From assembly GCA_902612965.1 (NCBI GenBank), contig CACMFN010000003.1, forward strand, positions 1-64,000: a DNA stretch of 64,000 bases, in the 5' to 3' direction. This DNA is from an uncultured SAR116 cluster alpha proteobacterium (GTDB lineage: Bacteria; Pseudomonadota; Alphaproteobacteria; Puniceispirillales; GCA-002684695). Made by a program: the position numbers and the translations under genes. The notes under the pieces were generated by a model. That model was given only the letters and a program-made list of their open reading frames with translations. It made no database searches and was not told the origin of the DNA. Below, in pieces: positions 19,591-49,270 of this stretch. The stretch's first letter is position 1, and each line of letters opens with the position of its first letter.

Positions 19591-20364
19591 ATGATTAATG
19601 TTATTTCTAAATTAGCAAAATTTCTTATTCCTGCTGGTATTGTTAGTTTAATTCCTTTTGCAGCTTTTGCATCAGGTAATCTTGAGGCTAATGATTTTGT
19701 TGGAATGAGTTTTTGGATTATTTCAATTGGAATGGTAGCTGCTACTGTTTTCTTCTTTATGGAATCAATGAAAGTTGATGCAAAATGGAGAACATCCTTA
19801 GTTGTTGCTGGTCTTGTTACAATGATTGCTGCTGTTCACTATTTTTATATGAGAGCAGTATGGATTGAAACAGCTGATACACCAACAGTGTACAGATATA
19901 TTGACTGGATTTTAACTGTTCCACTTCAAATTGTAGAATTCTATTTGATACTTGCAGCTGTTGGAGCTGTTGCTGGTAGAGTATTCTGGAATCTATTAGT
20001 TGCTTCACTGGTAATGCTTATTGCAGGTTACGTAGGTGAAGTTGGATATGTGAATGTATGGCTTGCCTTCATCGTTGGTATGCTAGGATGGATTTATATT
20101 CTCTATGCAATTTTTGCTGGGGACGCTCAGGAAAATCTATCAAGTGCACCTGAAGGAGTACAATCAGCTTTTAGAACAATGAGACTTATTGTTTTAGTTG
20201 GTTGGGCAATTTACCCATTAGGTTACGTTTTTGGTTATGCAGGAAACCAAGTTGATGCTGCATCACTTAACGCGATTTACAATATTGCTGATTTTGTAAA
20301 TAAGATAGCTTTTGGTTTAATGATTTGGGCAGCTGCTACATCATCATCTGAAAAGACTGCTTAA
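19591..20364 (+). CDS. Proteorhodopsin, blue-tuned light-driven proton pump
   Basis: Seven-helix retinal protein of 257 aa with an N-terminal signal peptide (about 1-28, ending AAFASG). The schiff-base lysine is Lys238 in ADFVNKIAFG. The proton acceptor and donor are Asp105 and Glu116 in DWILTVPLQIVEF, with Thr109 giving the DTE proton-pump motif, and His83 matches the conserved His75. Gln113 sits at the spectral-tuning site (position 105 in the reference protein), which predicts blue absorption. It is a single-gene unit with its own promoter and a strong terminator. No retinal or carotenoid genes are in the window, so retinal must come from elsewhere in the genome or the environment. Confidence 0.96.
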   Translation: MINVISKLAKFLIPAGIVSLIPFAAFASGNLEANDFVGMSFWIISIGMVAATVFFFMESMKVDAKWRTSLVVAGLVTMIAAVHYFYMRAVWIETADTPTVYRYIDWILTVPLQIVEFYLILAAVGAVAGRVFWNLLVASLVMLIAGYVGEVGYVNVWLAFIVGMLGWIYILYAIFAGDAQENLSSAPEGVQSAFRTMRLIVLVGWAIYPLGYVFGYAGNQVDAASLNAIYNIADFVNKIAFGLMIWAAATSSSEKTA

Positions 20365-44574: not shown

Positions 44575-45240
44575 ATGTCAAATTTTTATGTGAATTCTGT
44601 AAAACGGAAAATGAAATTTCAAAAACTTGATCTTCAATCAATGCAAAATAATGATGAAGATAGTTTATCAAATGTTGAAAATTTATCTCCTAAGGATGAA
44701 ATTAGGCAAGAAGAAAGTAACTTAAGAGAAGAAGCAATTTCAGATCTTAAATTCAAACTTCATGATAATTTCTCTCATATTCTAACAGATACAAATCTAC
44801 CAAATGAAAATAATGAAAATTTAAATTCTAAGGAAAAAATAAATCCATCTGAAGATAATATAGATGTTAGAGATATTAGTATTGATGAAGGACCAGAGTT
44901 TTTAAATGAAGCTAAAATTAATTTGAAGCAGATTGAAAACTTAGCTGGATTAAGTACAAGAAATGACGACCATAAAGCTTTATTAGAGGAACCTACAAAA
45001 GACAATCTTTCAATTTTTATAGGCGAGTTGAGAAAATTAACTGAAAAAAGATCTCAGATTAAGGATAGTTTGCATAAAGTTGACGATGAACTGATCAAGC
45101 TTCAGGAAAAAATTTATAAAAATAAAAAAATATACGAAGATAAAATAGCTCAACTTGAGTCCATAAATGAAATTTACAGTCAATCTGCAAATATTGTTTC
45201 AAAAATTATTAGTGAGGATACAAAGTATGAACAGTTATAA
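44575..45240 (+). CDS. Unrecognised acidic protein with C-terminal coiled coil, ParA partner candidate
   Basis: Protein of 221 aa that I do not recognise. The first 20 residues are basic (VKRKMKFQKLD), residues ~25-150 are acidic, Asn/Ser/Glu-rich and look disordered, and residues ~150-215 form a clear coiled coil (heptad-like LRKLTEKRSQIKDSLHKVD and on). The stop overlaps the start of the ParA-like ATPase by 14 bases, so the two are coupled. Short basic N-terminal peptides followed by disorder and a coiled coil are common among ParA/MinD-type ATPase partners. The role as an ATPase-stimulating adaptor is inference. Confidence 0.7.
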   Translation: MSNFYVNSVKRKMKFQKLDLQSMQNNDEDSLSNVENLSPKDEIRQEESNLREEAISDLKFKLHDNFSHILTDTNLPNENNENLNSKEKINPSEDNIDVRDISIDEGPEFLNEAKINLKQIENLAGLSTRNDDHKALLEEPTKDNLSIFIGELRKLTEKRSQIKDSLHKVDDELIKLQEKIYKNKKIYEDKIAQLESINEIYSQSANIVSKIISEDTKYEQL

Positions 45241-45985
45241 AATTGCATTCCTGAATTCCAAAGGTGGAGTTGGGAAGTCCACACTTTGTATTTTGTCTGC
45301 ATTAGGTCTATCTCAAACTAGATTTGATGGAAAAATTAAATTAATTGATACAGATAGTCAAAAGAGTTCATTAAGTATACTCAATCAGGTGTCATCAAAA
45401 ATTGAATTGGATTTTATTCCATTTAACCATGCATCACCAAATTTAGGTGTAAGCCTCTTAGATCAGAAATTAAAGACATATTCAGTTAAAGAGGAAATAA
45501 TTTTAATTGATACTATGGCACATCCCCCAAGGCAGCTCGTAAATTGTATTATGCAATGTGATTCAATCTTAATACCGTGTAACTTAAGTGAAATTGAAAT
45601 CTTAGCAACAATTGAATTTGTTAAAATGCTAGACAGTCTTAAAAAACTTCAAGGATCCGGTTCGCCGCATCTAATCATTATACCAAATAAGGTTCCACCA
45701 AAGCAGGTTCATATAAATCAGCTTGTTGACGCACTATCAGAAGTGGACGTTGTTATAGGTCCCACAATCTCTGATCTAGCTGTTTTTAAAAATGATTTGA
45801 AGGGTTTATCTAAAAAGATTTCAAATTTACCTCAAAATTACAAGTCACAATATATTGGTTTTAGAGATTTTATTTATAAAGTATTAGTAAAGCGACAAAT
45901 CGACAAATTAATTTCTGGTGATAATGAAACTCATAATGTATCAGCTGAAACAGAAAACGTTATACCTATCTCTAAAAATAATTAA
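45227..45985 (+). CDS. ParA/MinD-family ATPase (orphan)
   Basis: Deviant Walker-A ATPase of 252 aa. SKGGVGKST at residues 11-19 has the signature lysine (Lys12) plus Lys17; LIDTDSQKSS is the A' segment and EIILIDTMAHPPR the Walker B region. It lacks the N-terminal helix-turn-helix extension of plasmid ParA and has no ParB next to it. The ATG at 45227 gives a normal ParA start; the frame opens earlier inside the upstream gene. Such orphans position chemoreceptors, carboxysomes, flagella or other cargo; the cargo here is unknown. Confidence 0.85.
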   Translation: MNSYKIAFLNSKGGVGKSTLCILSALGLSQTRFDGKIKLIDTDSQKSSLSILNQVSSKIELDFIPFNHASPNLGVSLLDQKLKTYSVKEEIILIDTMAHPPRQLVNCIMQCDSILIPCNLSEIEILATIEFVKMLDSLKKLQGSGSPHLIIIPNKVPPKQVHINQLVDALSEVDVVIGPTISDLAVFKNDLKGLSKKISNLPQNYKSQYIGFRDFIYKVLVKRQIDKLISGDNETHNVSAETENVIPISKNN

Positions 45986-46223: not shown

Positions 46224-47123
46224 ATGAAAAATAATTGGCAAAATGAAATATTTAGAGATAAAAATGAATTAGGTTGGTTGAAGCACTCTTTAAAGAAAAG
46301 AGAAACTGAATATTCCCCCAGTTCTATGATTGGAGGTAATTACAAACCATTAATTGATGAATATAAAAACAAAAGTCATATTGCAAGATCAAAAGTCAAA
46401 TCTGAAATTTATCAATATGGTAAAAGTTCTGGTCATAAAATAGAGATTACTGTATCCGACACATCTCCTAATAATGAACTTAAGCCTCTTCTTATATTTA
46501 TTCATGGAGGGTATTGGCAAGAGTTATCTTTGGAGGAATCTTTTTTCCCTGCAATTCATGCTAATAAAAATAAAATAGGATTTGCTGCAATAAATTATAC
46601 TTTGGCTCCAAAGGCAACAATTGATCAAATTGTTTACGAGTGCCAATCTGCAATTGAGTGGATATTTTCGCATTGCAATGAATTAGGATTTGATAGTAAA
46701 AAAATTGTTATATCTGGCAGTTCAGCAGGCGCGCATCTTGCAGCAATGTATTCATTGAAAAGAAAACCTCTATACAATCACGTTGGAAATATTTTAGTTT
46801 CAGGAATATACGACATTCAACCATTAATTAAGACATCAGTTGATGAGGCCCTTTGTTTAGATCCAGATGAAGCTTTGAGAAATAGTCCATTATTCTATGA
46901 ATTAAAAGAATTCCCTCCAACAATTGTTGCATGGGGTGAAATAGAAACTGATCAATTCAAAAAACAAAGTAAAATTTTTGCAAATAAATTGATTGAACAT
47001 AAAATTCCTGTAAGAACTTTAGAAGTGAAAAATAAAAATCATTTTGATGTGATACTAGATTTAGCTGATTATGATACTCCATTAGGTATGGAATTAAAAA
47101 TGTTACTCGATTTTCAAGACTAA
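46224..47123 (+). CDS. Alpha/beta hydrolase, probable kynurenine formamidase
   Basis: Serine hydrolase of 299 aa. The oxyanion motif is IHGGYWQEL, the nucleophile elbow ISGSSAGAHLA, and a late Asp/His pair fits EIETDQF and KNHFDVI. HGGYW with GSSAGAHL is the pattern of arylformamidases of the alpha/beta-hydrolase type. It is three bases ahead of tryptophan 2,3-dioxygenase and followed by kynureninase, which completes the tryptophan-to-anthranilate route. Context carries much of this call. Confidence 0.75.
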   Translation: MKNNWQNEIFRDKNELGWLKHSLKKRETEYSPSSMIGGNYKPLIDEYKNKSHIARSKVKSEIYQYGKSSGHKIEITVSDTSPNNELKPLLIFIHGGYWQELSLEESFFPAIHANKNKIGFAAINYTLAPKATIDQIVYECQSAIEWIFSHCNELGFDSKKIVISGSSAGAHLAAMYSLKRKPLYNHVGNILVSGIYDIQPLIKTSVDEALCLDPDEALRNSPLFYELKEFPPTIVAWGEIETDQFKKQSKIFANKLIEHKIPVRTLEVKNKNHFDVILDLADYDTPLGMELKMLLDFQD

Positions 47124-47126
47124 ATT

Positions 47127-48068
47127 ATGCCTGAATATAAACCCAAAACACCAGCAGTTGTAGATATTTCAAAAGTAGACGGATCTCCTCATCCTAGAAA
47201 AATTGGTTTTTCAACGGATAAGAGCAGATATAAAACATCTAAGCAGACTATGGGTGATCCTTTGATAAATTATGAAGGAAAATCAAATCCATATATTGAT
47301 TATCAAAGTATAGACCTTCTCTTATCGCTACAACATCCAAGATCTGAAGGTTATGATGAAATGTGCTTTTATATTATGGGTCAGGTAAAGGAGATTTTAT
47401 TTAAAGGACTTCACTTTGAACTTTTTAATGCTCGAGAGCAAATAAAACTCGATGAAATTAATAATGCAATAACTATACTTGAACGATCAATAGAGTACGT
47501 AAAATTCATAGCAGACGCATGGAATATTTTATCTACAATTAAACCTGAAGGCTTTAACCAATTTAGAGATTACTTAGGCACTGCATCAGGTCAACTTTCA
47601 TTTATGTATCGTCATGTTGAATTTATATTAGGTAATAAAAGTGAAAAAATGGCTTCAGCCCATAAAAATGTTCCTCATGTTTGGCCAGAAATTAAAAAAA
47701 ACTTAGAAACACCTAGTCTGTATGATGAAGTTATTTTTTATCTAAATAGAAAAGGTTTAAGTATTTCTGAGGCAGTTTTAGATAGAGATTGGAAGGAAAC
47801 ATACAAGTTTAACCAATCAGTCAAGGATGCTTGGTTGTCTGTGTATCGAGAACCTAGCAATGCCAATTTAAAATATAAACTTGGTGAAAGCTTAATATCT
47901 TTTGATGAGCAATTTTCAATATATAGATGGAGGCATTACACTCTTGTGAAAAAAATTATTGGCTTCAAGTCTGGGACAGGTGGATCATCTGGGGTTGAAT
48001 GGTTAGAAAAAGTAACATCTCATCAATTTTTTCCTGAATTATGGGAAATTAGAAATGAACTATCGTAA
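47127..48068 (+). CDS. kynA: Tryptophan 2,3-dioxygenase
   Basis: Heme dioxygenase of 313 aa. The distal region has LLSLQHPRSEGYDEMCFYI (conserved His) and KGLHFELFNAR; RDYLGTASGQLSFMYRHVEF follows; the proximal heme histidine is in YRWRHYTLVKKIIG and the C-terminal loop is GTGGSSGVEWL. It opens the indole ring to N-formylkynurenine. Five bases separate it from kynU. Confidence 0.93.
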   Translation: MPEYKPKTPAVVDISKVDGSPHPRKIGFSTDKSRYKTSKQTMGDPLINYEGKSNPYIDYQSIDLLLSLQHPRSEGYDEMCFYIMGQVKEILFKGLHFELFNAREQIKLDEINNAITILERSIEYVKFIADAWNILSTIKPEGFNQFRDYLGTASGQLSFMYRHVEFILGNKSEKMASAHKNVPHVWPEIKKNLETPSLYDEVIFYLNRKGLSISEAVLDRDWKETYKFNQSVKDAWLSVYREPSNANLKYKLGESLISFDEQFSIYRWRHYTLVKKIIGFKSGTGGSSGVEWLEKVTSHQFFPELWEIRNELS

Positions 48069-48073
48069 CTAAG

Positions 48074-49270
48074 ATGAAGTCTAATTTTTTGAACCTAAAG
48101 AAAAACTTTTCTATTCCTAAGGGTACTATTTATTTATGTGGTAATTCACTTGGACCACCTCTGAAATCCATGGGCAATGAAGTAAAAAAATTTGTTGATG
48201 AGGAATGGGCAAAAGAACTTGTTAAGGGATGGAACTCGAAAGGTTGGTTCGAACAATCAAAAAAAATAGGAAATCAAATAGCTAAAATAGTAGGCGCAGA
48301 TAAAGACACTATTATTGTAGGAGACACACTCTCCACTCAGGTCTTTCAAGCTTTAACTTGTGCACTGAAACTAAATCAAAATAGAAGATATGTACTAACA
48401 GACAATGGTAACTTTCCTGCCGATATTTATATTGCCGAAGGATTATTAAAACTTTTAGGTGATAAGCATGAACTTAAAATAGTAAAGCCCGAAGATATTA
48501 TTGAGCATATTAATGATGAAGTTGCCGTAATTATGCTTACAGAAGCTGATTACAGAACAGGTAGAATTTACGACATGAAAAATATTACTCATCTTGCTCA
48601 TAGCTCTGGTGCTTTGGTCATTTGGGATCTTGCACATACTGCTGGGGTTTTACCAATTAAACTCAGTGAAACAAAGGCAGATTTTGCAGTTGGGTGTACT
48701 TATAAGTATTTAAATGGTGGCCCAGGCTCACCTGCATTTATTTACATTGCTCCAAATCATATAAACAAAGTAGAGCCAGCTTTATTTGGTTGGCATGGAC
48801 ACAAAAATCCATTCGAATTTAATTTAAACTATCTCCCATCAAGTGGTATAGAAAAAATGAAGATAGGCTCTCCCTCAATTATATCATTTGCCTCTCTAAA
48901 GCATGCCTTGGATATTTGGGACAATATTGATATGAACGAATTACGATTAAAATCAATTGAATTATCAGAGTTGTTTATTTCTGAAATAGATAAGTTATCA
49001 ATAGATTTAAATTTAGTCAGTCCAAGAGATCCTTATTTTCGAGGAAATCAAGTTTCATATAGCCTTGAAAATGGATATGCATTTATGCAGGCACTTATTC
49101 AAGAAAATTTAATTGGCGACTTTAGATCTCCAAATTTAATTAGGTTTGGTTTTTCTCCAATATACTTAGATGAGCAAGATATTATTAATGCTGTTGCTAT
49201 AATTGGAAAAGTTTCAAGGAACAGCCTTTGGAGGAAATTTTCAAATCAAAGTCGAAAAATTGTTACTTAA
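48074..49270 (+). CDS. kynU: Kynureninase
   Basis: PLP fold-type I enzyme, 398 aa. It starts FSIPKGTIYLCGNSLGPPLK; the PLP aspartate region is VIWDLAHTAGVLPI, and the PLP lysine is in GCTYKYLNGGPGSPAF. Substrate-binding motifs WHGHKNPFEF and RFGFSPIYL are present. It cleaves kynurenine to anthranilate and alanine, the last step of this operon branch. Its 3' end is followed by the IYD-like gene after seven bases. Confidence 0.93.
   Translation: MKSNFLNLKKNFSIPKGTIYLCGNSLGPPLKSMGNEVKKFVDEEWAKELVKGWNSKGWFEQSKKIGNQIAKIVGADKDTIIVGDTLSTQVFQALTCALKLNQNRRYVLTDNGNFPADIYIAEGLLKLLGDKHELKIVKPEDIIEHINDEVAVIMLTEADYRTGRIYDMKNITHLAHSSGALVIWDLAHTAGVLPIKLSETKADFAVGCTYKYLNGGPGSPAFIYIAPNHINKVEPALFGWHGHKNPFEFNLNYLPSSGIEKMKIGSPSIISFASLKHALDIWDNIDMNELRLKSIELSELFISEIDKLSIDLNLVSPRDPYFRGNQVSYSLENGYAFMQALIQENLIGDFRSPNLIRFGFSPIYLDEQDIINAVAIIGKVSRNSLWRKFSNQSRKIVT

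Follow-up and report, generated by a model that had tools for sequence, protein, structure and literature searches.

The known activators of ParA/MinD ATPases have a common layout, in which a short basic peptide is followed by an acidic disordered linker and a coiled coil (PMC7993993). In PomX, the basic N-terminal peptide, which is 22 amino acids long and contains two essential basic residues, suffices to activate PomZ, and the coiled coil self-assembles (PMC7993993). A basic start is also found in ParG, ParB, MinE, TlpT and McdB (PMC7993993, PMC10241942), and basic disordered N-termini are general among the partners of ParA/MinD ATPases (PMC10241942). The partners of orphan ParA proteins share almost no sequence, which makes them hard to find (PMC10241942).

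Here we analyze a pair of overlapping genes in a 64,000-nucleotide stretch of contig CACMFN010000003.1 (assembly GCA_902612965.1) from an uncultured alphaproteobacterium of the SAR116 cluster, which we call the window. A first-pass annotation, made from the letters of the window, had proposed that one gene encodes an orphan ParA-like ATPase and the other a protein laid out like known ParA adaptors; that the adaptors have this layout in common agrees with the literature (PMC7993993). We found no description of the module itself in the literature.

Results

Two overlapping genes in the SAR116 window

The two genes are intact, overlap and are conserved together (Table 1). The 14-base overlap claimed in the first-pass annotation is present, and the pair, including the overlap, occurs in four of the five genomes of the window's genus (the fifth is only 65% complete), which argues against a chance arrangement. 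The mechanically called open reading frame of the ATPase starts at ATG 45167. We prefer the start at 45227, because homologues align from there and because of the GAGG motif at a suitable position upstream. The pair is flanked by a divergent rhomboid gene and a kynurenine-pathway operon. This downstream operon (46224-49270) resembles the kynurenine pathway in comprising genes for an alpha/beta hydrolase (possibly a formamidase), a tryptophan 2,3-dioxygenase and a kynureninase. These identities, and that of a proteorhodopsin-like membrane protein elsewhere in the window (19591-20364), were read from the sequence; the profile scan covered the hydrolase only.

Table 1. Features of the gene pair, with positions in the window
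Feature	Position	Strand	Basis and remarks
Partner gene	44575..45240	+	221 aa, open reading frame; conserved in the genus; proposed ParA-activating adaptor
Basic N-terminal peptide MSNFYVNSVKRKMKFQKLDLQ (residues 1-21)	44575..44637	+	net charge +4; proposed ATPase-activating peptide
Acidic, mostly disordered linker (residues 22-140)	44638..44994	+	net charge -17; low pLDDT except for helix 39-71
C-terminal coiled coil (residues 142-220)	44998..45234	+	heptad periodicity, p = 5e-5; single helix
GAGG motif, probably the ribosome-binding site for the ATPase gene	45214..45217	+	inside the partner gene, 9 nt 5' of ATG 45227
Gene overlap, 14 nt	45227..45240	+	sequence; retained in the other pair-bearing genomes of the genus
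ParA-type ATPase gene	45227..45985	+	252 aa; Pfam match, order and class searches, model
Deviant Walker A motif KGGVGKST (Lys12, Lys17)	45260..45283	+	invariant in the alignment of 20 relatives

The ATPase is a member of the ParA/MinD superfamily

The deviant Walker A motif that had been noticed at first reading, with Lys12 and Lys17, was confirmed. It reads NSKGGVGKST in full (N10 to T19 with K12 and K17), and K12, K17, D41 and D95 are invariant in the 20 relatives. The signature lysine, the second Walker A aspartate, the Walker B aspartate, the Pfam matches (CbiA and AAA_31, both above cut-off) and the fold all place the protein in the ParA/MinD superfamily. Among the NCBIfam subfamilies, a partition ATPase matches best, but far below its cut-off. 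In the structural model (pLDDT 82.8, pTM 0.86), the best fold matches are ParF/TP228 ParA, followed by MipZ, Soj and McdA. In the model, the protein begins at the P-loop strand and therefore lacks a helix-turn-helix domain, and its disordered C-terminus shows no sign of a MinD-type membrane helix. With neither of these, DNA binding by the ATPase is something that we infer from its class.

Several more specific identities were considered and rejected. MipZ belongs to the same superfamily and is among the fold matches, but the ATPase stays below its cut-off (PF09140, 17.2 bits against 20.7) and matches over residues 6-50 only. MinD is disfavored by the disordered C-terminus of the model and by a partner that has no MinE-like match in Pfam or NCBIfam. 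A ParABS partition system is disfavored by the lack of a ParB in the window, which agrees with the first reading; the genome's own ParA-ParB is located on contig C2. FlhG/FleN is also a member of the superfamily, and an equivalent pair in family f4, described below, lies in an FlhF-FlhG cluster, but the genome has a separate FlhG gene, which adjoins FlhF and FliA on contig C4.

The partner protein has three parts

Charge, heptad statistics and the AlphaFold model all bear out the basic N-terminus, the acidic disordered middle and the C-terminal coiled coil that were originally ascribed to the partner. AlphaFold predicts one helix for residues 142-220, with pLDDT values mostly between 92 and 96, and gives low confidence to most of the remainder. 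Within the genus, residues 1-24 are about 80% identical to those of the diverged species, and the coiled coil is 72-74% identical, as against only 24-33% for residues 72-141.

The partner has no curated family in Pfam or NCBIfam and no sequence relative in the PDB, where sequence and fold matches amount to chance coiled-coil similarities. No viral relative was found, and sequence searches detect the window-type partner in its own genus only. As the layout matches that of PomX and a basic start is common to other adaptors, we have filed the pair as a module of a ParA and an activator.

An equivalent pair in family f4

In family f4, the gene immediately 5' of ParA encodes a protein of 115-140 amino acids that starts with MDNYEINILRRNGNWKK. 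This protein adjoins ParA in 37 of the 38 genomes that have it, with a spacing of a few to about 20 nucleotides, and the question whether the pair travels together in relatives, raised at first reading, can be answered positively for the window's genus, with a corresponding pair in f4. Three f4 ParA genes are without the protein, two of them (in G007 and G034) within 100 nucleotides of a contig end.

The f4 partners share the three-part layout, with a positive start, a C-terminal heptad repeat and, in most, an acidic middle. Heptad periodicity was detected in the C-terminal 65 residues of all 12 proteins tested (p 0.0005-0.02). Compared with the f4 start peptides, the start peptide of the window partner scores 25.8 (shuffle p 1e-5). 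Among 1683 other N-termini, a single one scores higher, itself from an f4 partner; the next, at 20.7, is a threonine-synthase-like N-terminus, which makes the similarity between f1 and f4 start peptides suggestive, not decisive. When compared as whole-length profiles, the f1 and f4 partners do not connect; what links them is position, layout and start peptide. On these grounds, their homology is probable but unproven.

In every f4 locus read with enough flanking sequence, the pair lies in a flagellar cluster, between FlhA-FlhF-FlhG-FliA...FlgF and cNMP-FliL. FliL and the cNMP gene were scanned against Pfam; the other genes of the cluster were recognized by eye from their sequences.

A membrane-anchored protein in families f2 and f3

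Many f2 and f3 loci encode a membrane-anchored protein, with its gene either adjoining ParA on the upstream side or separated from it by one gene. Its features are a linker of acidic character, the motif GF.[FIV].[KR]R and, at the C-terminus, a helical block. The protein occurs in 54 genomes, nearly all from f2 and f3, and is sometimes encoded at a distance from ParA; G011 has it but no ParA. The f2/f3 ATPase thus appears to tend to accompany this protein, a co-occurrence that does not prove a partnership. ATPases without the partner would, according to the first-pass annotation, speak against a dedicated pair. Such relatives do exist in f2 and f3, but they mostly co-occur with the membrane-anchored protein.

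The motif looked like a possible contact site for ParA, and the genomes give mixed signs on this. It is degraded in the ParA-less G027, yet it is also absent in g5, an f2 genus that has ParA. In G027 (L235), it reads GINFIQQG, compared with GFQFF[KR]R in L194 and L203, as if it had decayed together with the ATPase. In the same genus g5, a 167-amino-acid protein encoded near ParA (L199/L237:3297-3800) looks by eye like the C-terminus of PopZ, without a Pfam match.

Elsewhere, the gene for the membrane protein is next to genes for a secretin and a PilM-PilN fusion (L226:678-5493, L227, L231 and L232). Shortened PilMN-like open reading frames adjoin it in L058, L189, L194 and L203, as if a pilus system had decayed there.

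Distribution of the ATPase in the order

The ATPase profile matches 98 of the 136 genomes of the order, including 37 of the 43 with a completeness of 90% or more, and nearly always a single copy per genome. Outside the order, among about 380 other alphaproteobacteria, there was one weak match, in one genome, at 4e-21. The ATPase is an order-specific family. In four near-complete genomes (G011, G015, G024 and G027) it is missing or shortened, which indicates that the system is dispensable and not essential everywhere. The first-pass annotation had argued that a retained pair probably positions something real. Conservation of the pair and the order-wide presence of the ATPase are in line with this argument, but the dispensability in several near-complete relatives detracts from it.

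The ATPase tree largely follows the families. An unrooted ingroup tree separates f1 and f4 from f2 and f3 (support 99/97), a split that matches the type of adaptor and should be read with caution on account of long branches. In the tree that included outgroups, branches were very long and f1 was not placed.

Discussion

The pair resembles several described systems. Like PomX/PomZ of Myxococcus xanthus, it combines a ParA/MinD ATPase with a partner that has a basic N-terminus of about 22 amino acids and a C-terminal coiled coil, a likeness of layout only; unlike that system, the SAR116 pair has no PomY that we could see and no link to division. With McdA/McdB of carboxysomes it shares the small ParA fold (6non and 6nop are among the structure matches) and, in McdB, a basic N-terminal extension, but other proteins match the fold better than McdA does, and carboxysome genes were not recognized in the window. 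ParF/ParG of plasmid TP228, a type Ib ParA system, provides the best fold matches and, in ParG, a basic N-terminus, whereas the SAR116 partner ends in a coiled coil and the SAR116 system is chromosomal and order-wide. PpfA/TlpT and ParC, which act on chemoreceptor clusters, are similar in that the ParA is an orphan and the N-terminus of the partner is rich in basic residues, but chemoreceptors are scarce in the order (see below). The best reading of the pair is that it would work like PomZ-PomX or McdA-McdB; the likeness lies in the layout, and membership in either system is not implied.

Together, our data speak for a model in which the pair is one unit of a nucleoid-type ParA ATPase and a dedicated activator or adaptor, to which we assign a probability of about three in four. 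The likely function of such a pair is to position a cellular structure. ATP-bound dimers of the ATPase would bind DNA without sequence preference. The start peptide of the partner would contact these dimers and trigger hydrolysis, and the coiled coil would let the partner self-assemble, bind cargo, or both. Repeated release and rebinding could then move, space or anchor the cargo along the nucleoid. In f2 and f3, the same ATPase probably uses the membrane-anchored adaptor instead, which would mean that the type of adaptor changed at the split between f1 and f4 on the one side and f2 and f3 on the other.

None of the common cargo candidates tracks the ATPase across the 61 genomes of the order that were searched. 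PHA synthase, a marker for PHA granules, is present in 7 of them and a secretin, for secretin-type pili, in 8. The chemoreceptor (MCP) signal domain is above cut-off in a single genome, which is that of the window itself (G000:C3:150423-150923). Flagellin is found in 44, and some non-flagellate relatives keep the ATPase.

The flagellar context in f4 nevertheless deserves consideration. According to the first-pass annotation, its proposal would be contradicted if the partner belonged to the known factors of flagella, cell division or ribosomes. No family of this kind matched, but the equivalent f4 pair does sit inside a flagellar cluster. The pair could therefore be a module for placing flagella or for a flagellar pole, which in the window's genus would have been relocated away from the flagellar genes. 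The window's genome has flagellins and a syntenic flagellar locus without the pair. We regard this reading as rather unlikely, since the established flagellar system, FlhF/FlhG, exists alongside the pair, the f1 pair is far from flagellar genes, and the ATPase has been kept in near-complete f2/f3 genomes in which neither flagellin nor an FlhG-like match was found (G014, G023 and G030). A type IV pilus-like machine, served by the ATPase throughout the order with the f2/f3 membrane-anchored protein as adaptor, seems highly improbable. In G009, the gene for that protein is flanked by fused PilM-PilN and a secretin, and secretins are also nearby in other loci; we read the shortened PilMN-like frames beside it in several ParA loci in the same sense. 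However, both the ATPase and the membrane-anchored protein have been kept in an order where secretins are rare, and the surroundings of the pair in f1 and f4 showed no pilus-type genes.

Control of division-site placement, in the manner of PomX/PomZ, would fill a gap: none of the 61 genomes has a match of true MipZ strength (the best matches are ParA, Mrp and FlhG), and no MinD is among the CbiA matches of the window's genome. These absences leave room for a role in division or pole placement, as does the PomX-like layout of the partner. Yet the window's genome is only 83% complete, nothing links the pair to ftsZ or other division genes, and the ATPase is missing or shortened in several near-complete relatives, so that we consider a division role quite unlikely. 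It is very unlikely, finally, that the ATPase is a leftover from plasmid or phage partition next to an unrelated neighbor with which it has no partnership. The plasmid proteins ParF and TP228 ParA as closest folds, and the partition ATPase as best NCBIfam match, though far under its cut-off, point in that direction. Against it stand single-copy conservation throughout the order, a tree that largely follows the families, identities below 60% to all plasmid or phage relatives that were found for the ATPase, and the conservation of the partner together with the ATPase.

The reading as an ATPase with a dedicated activator has implications beyond the window. Within one order, a single ATPase family stays constant and its neighbor shifts from a soluble coiled-coil protein to a membrane protein, so that the rules by which ParA proteins and adaptors are matched could be studied on pairs that occur in nature. 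The reading further suggests an uncharacterized cell-organizing system in abundant ocean bacteria that have no detected MipZ or MinD. A bolder version, which we put forward as speculation with the odds well against it, is that the SAR116 order uses the ATPase with lineage-specific adaptors, soluble coiled-coil proteins in one half of the order and membrane-anchored ones in the other, as a cell-organizing system of its own, for example for placing the division site or the pole, with the adaptor exchanged and the ATPase kept.

A minor observation concerns the syntenic flagellar site in the window's genome (L062:4746-5149, on contig C4 of G000). It carries two small open reading frames on the opposite strand, one for a coiled-coil-like product of 62 amino acids and one for a product of 64 amino acids, the latter resembling the 58-amino-acid product of the open reading frame that follows ParA in f4.
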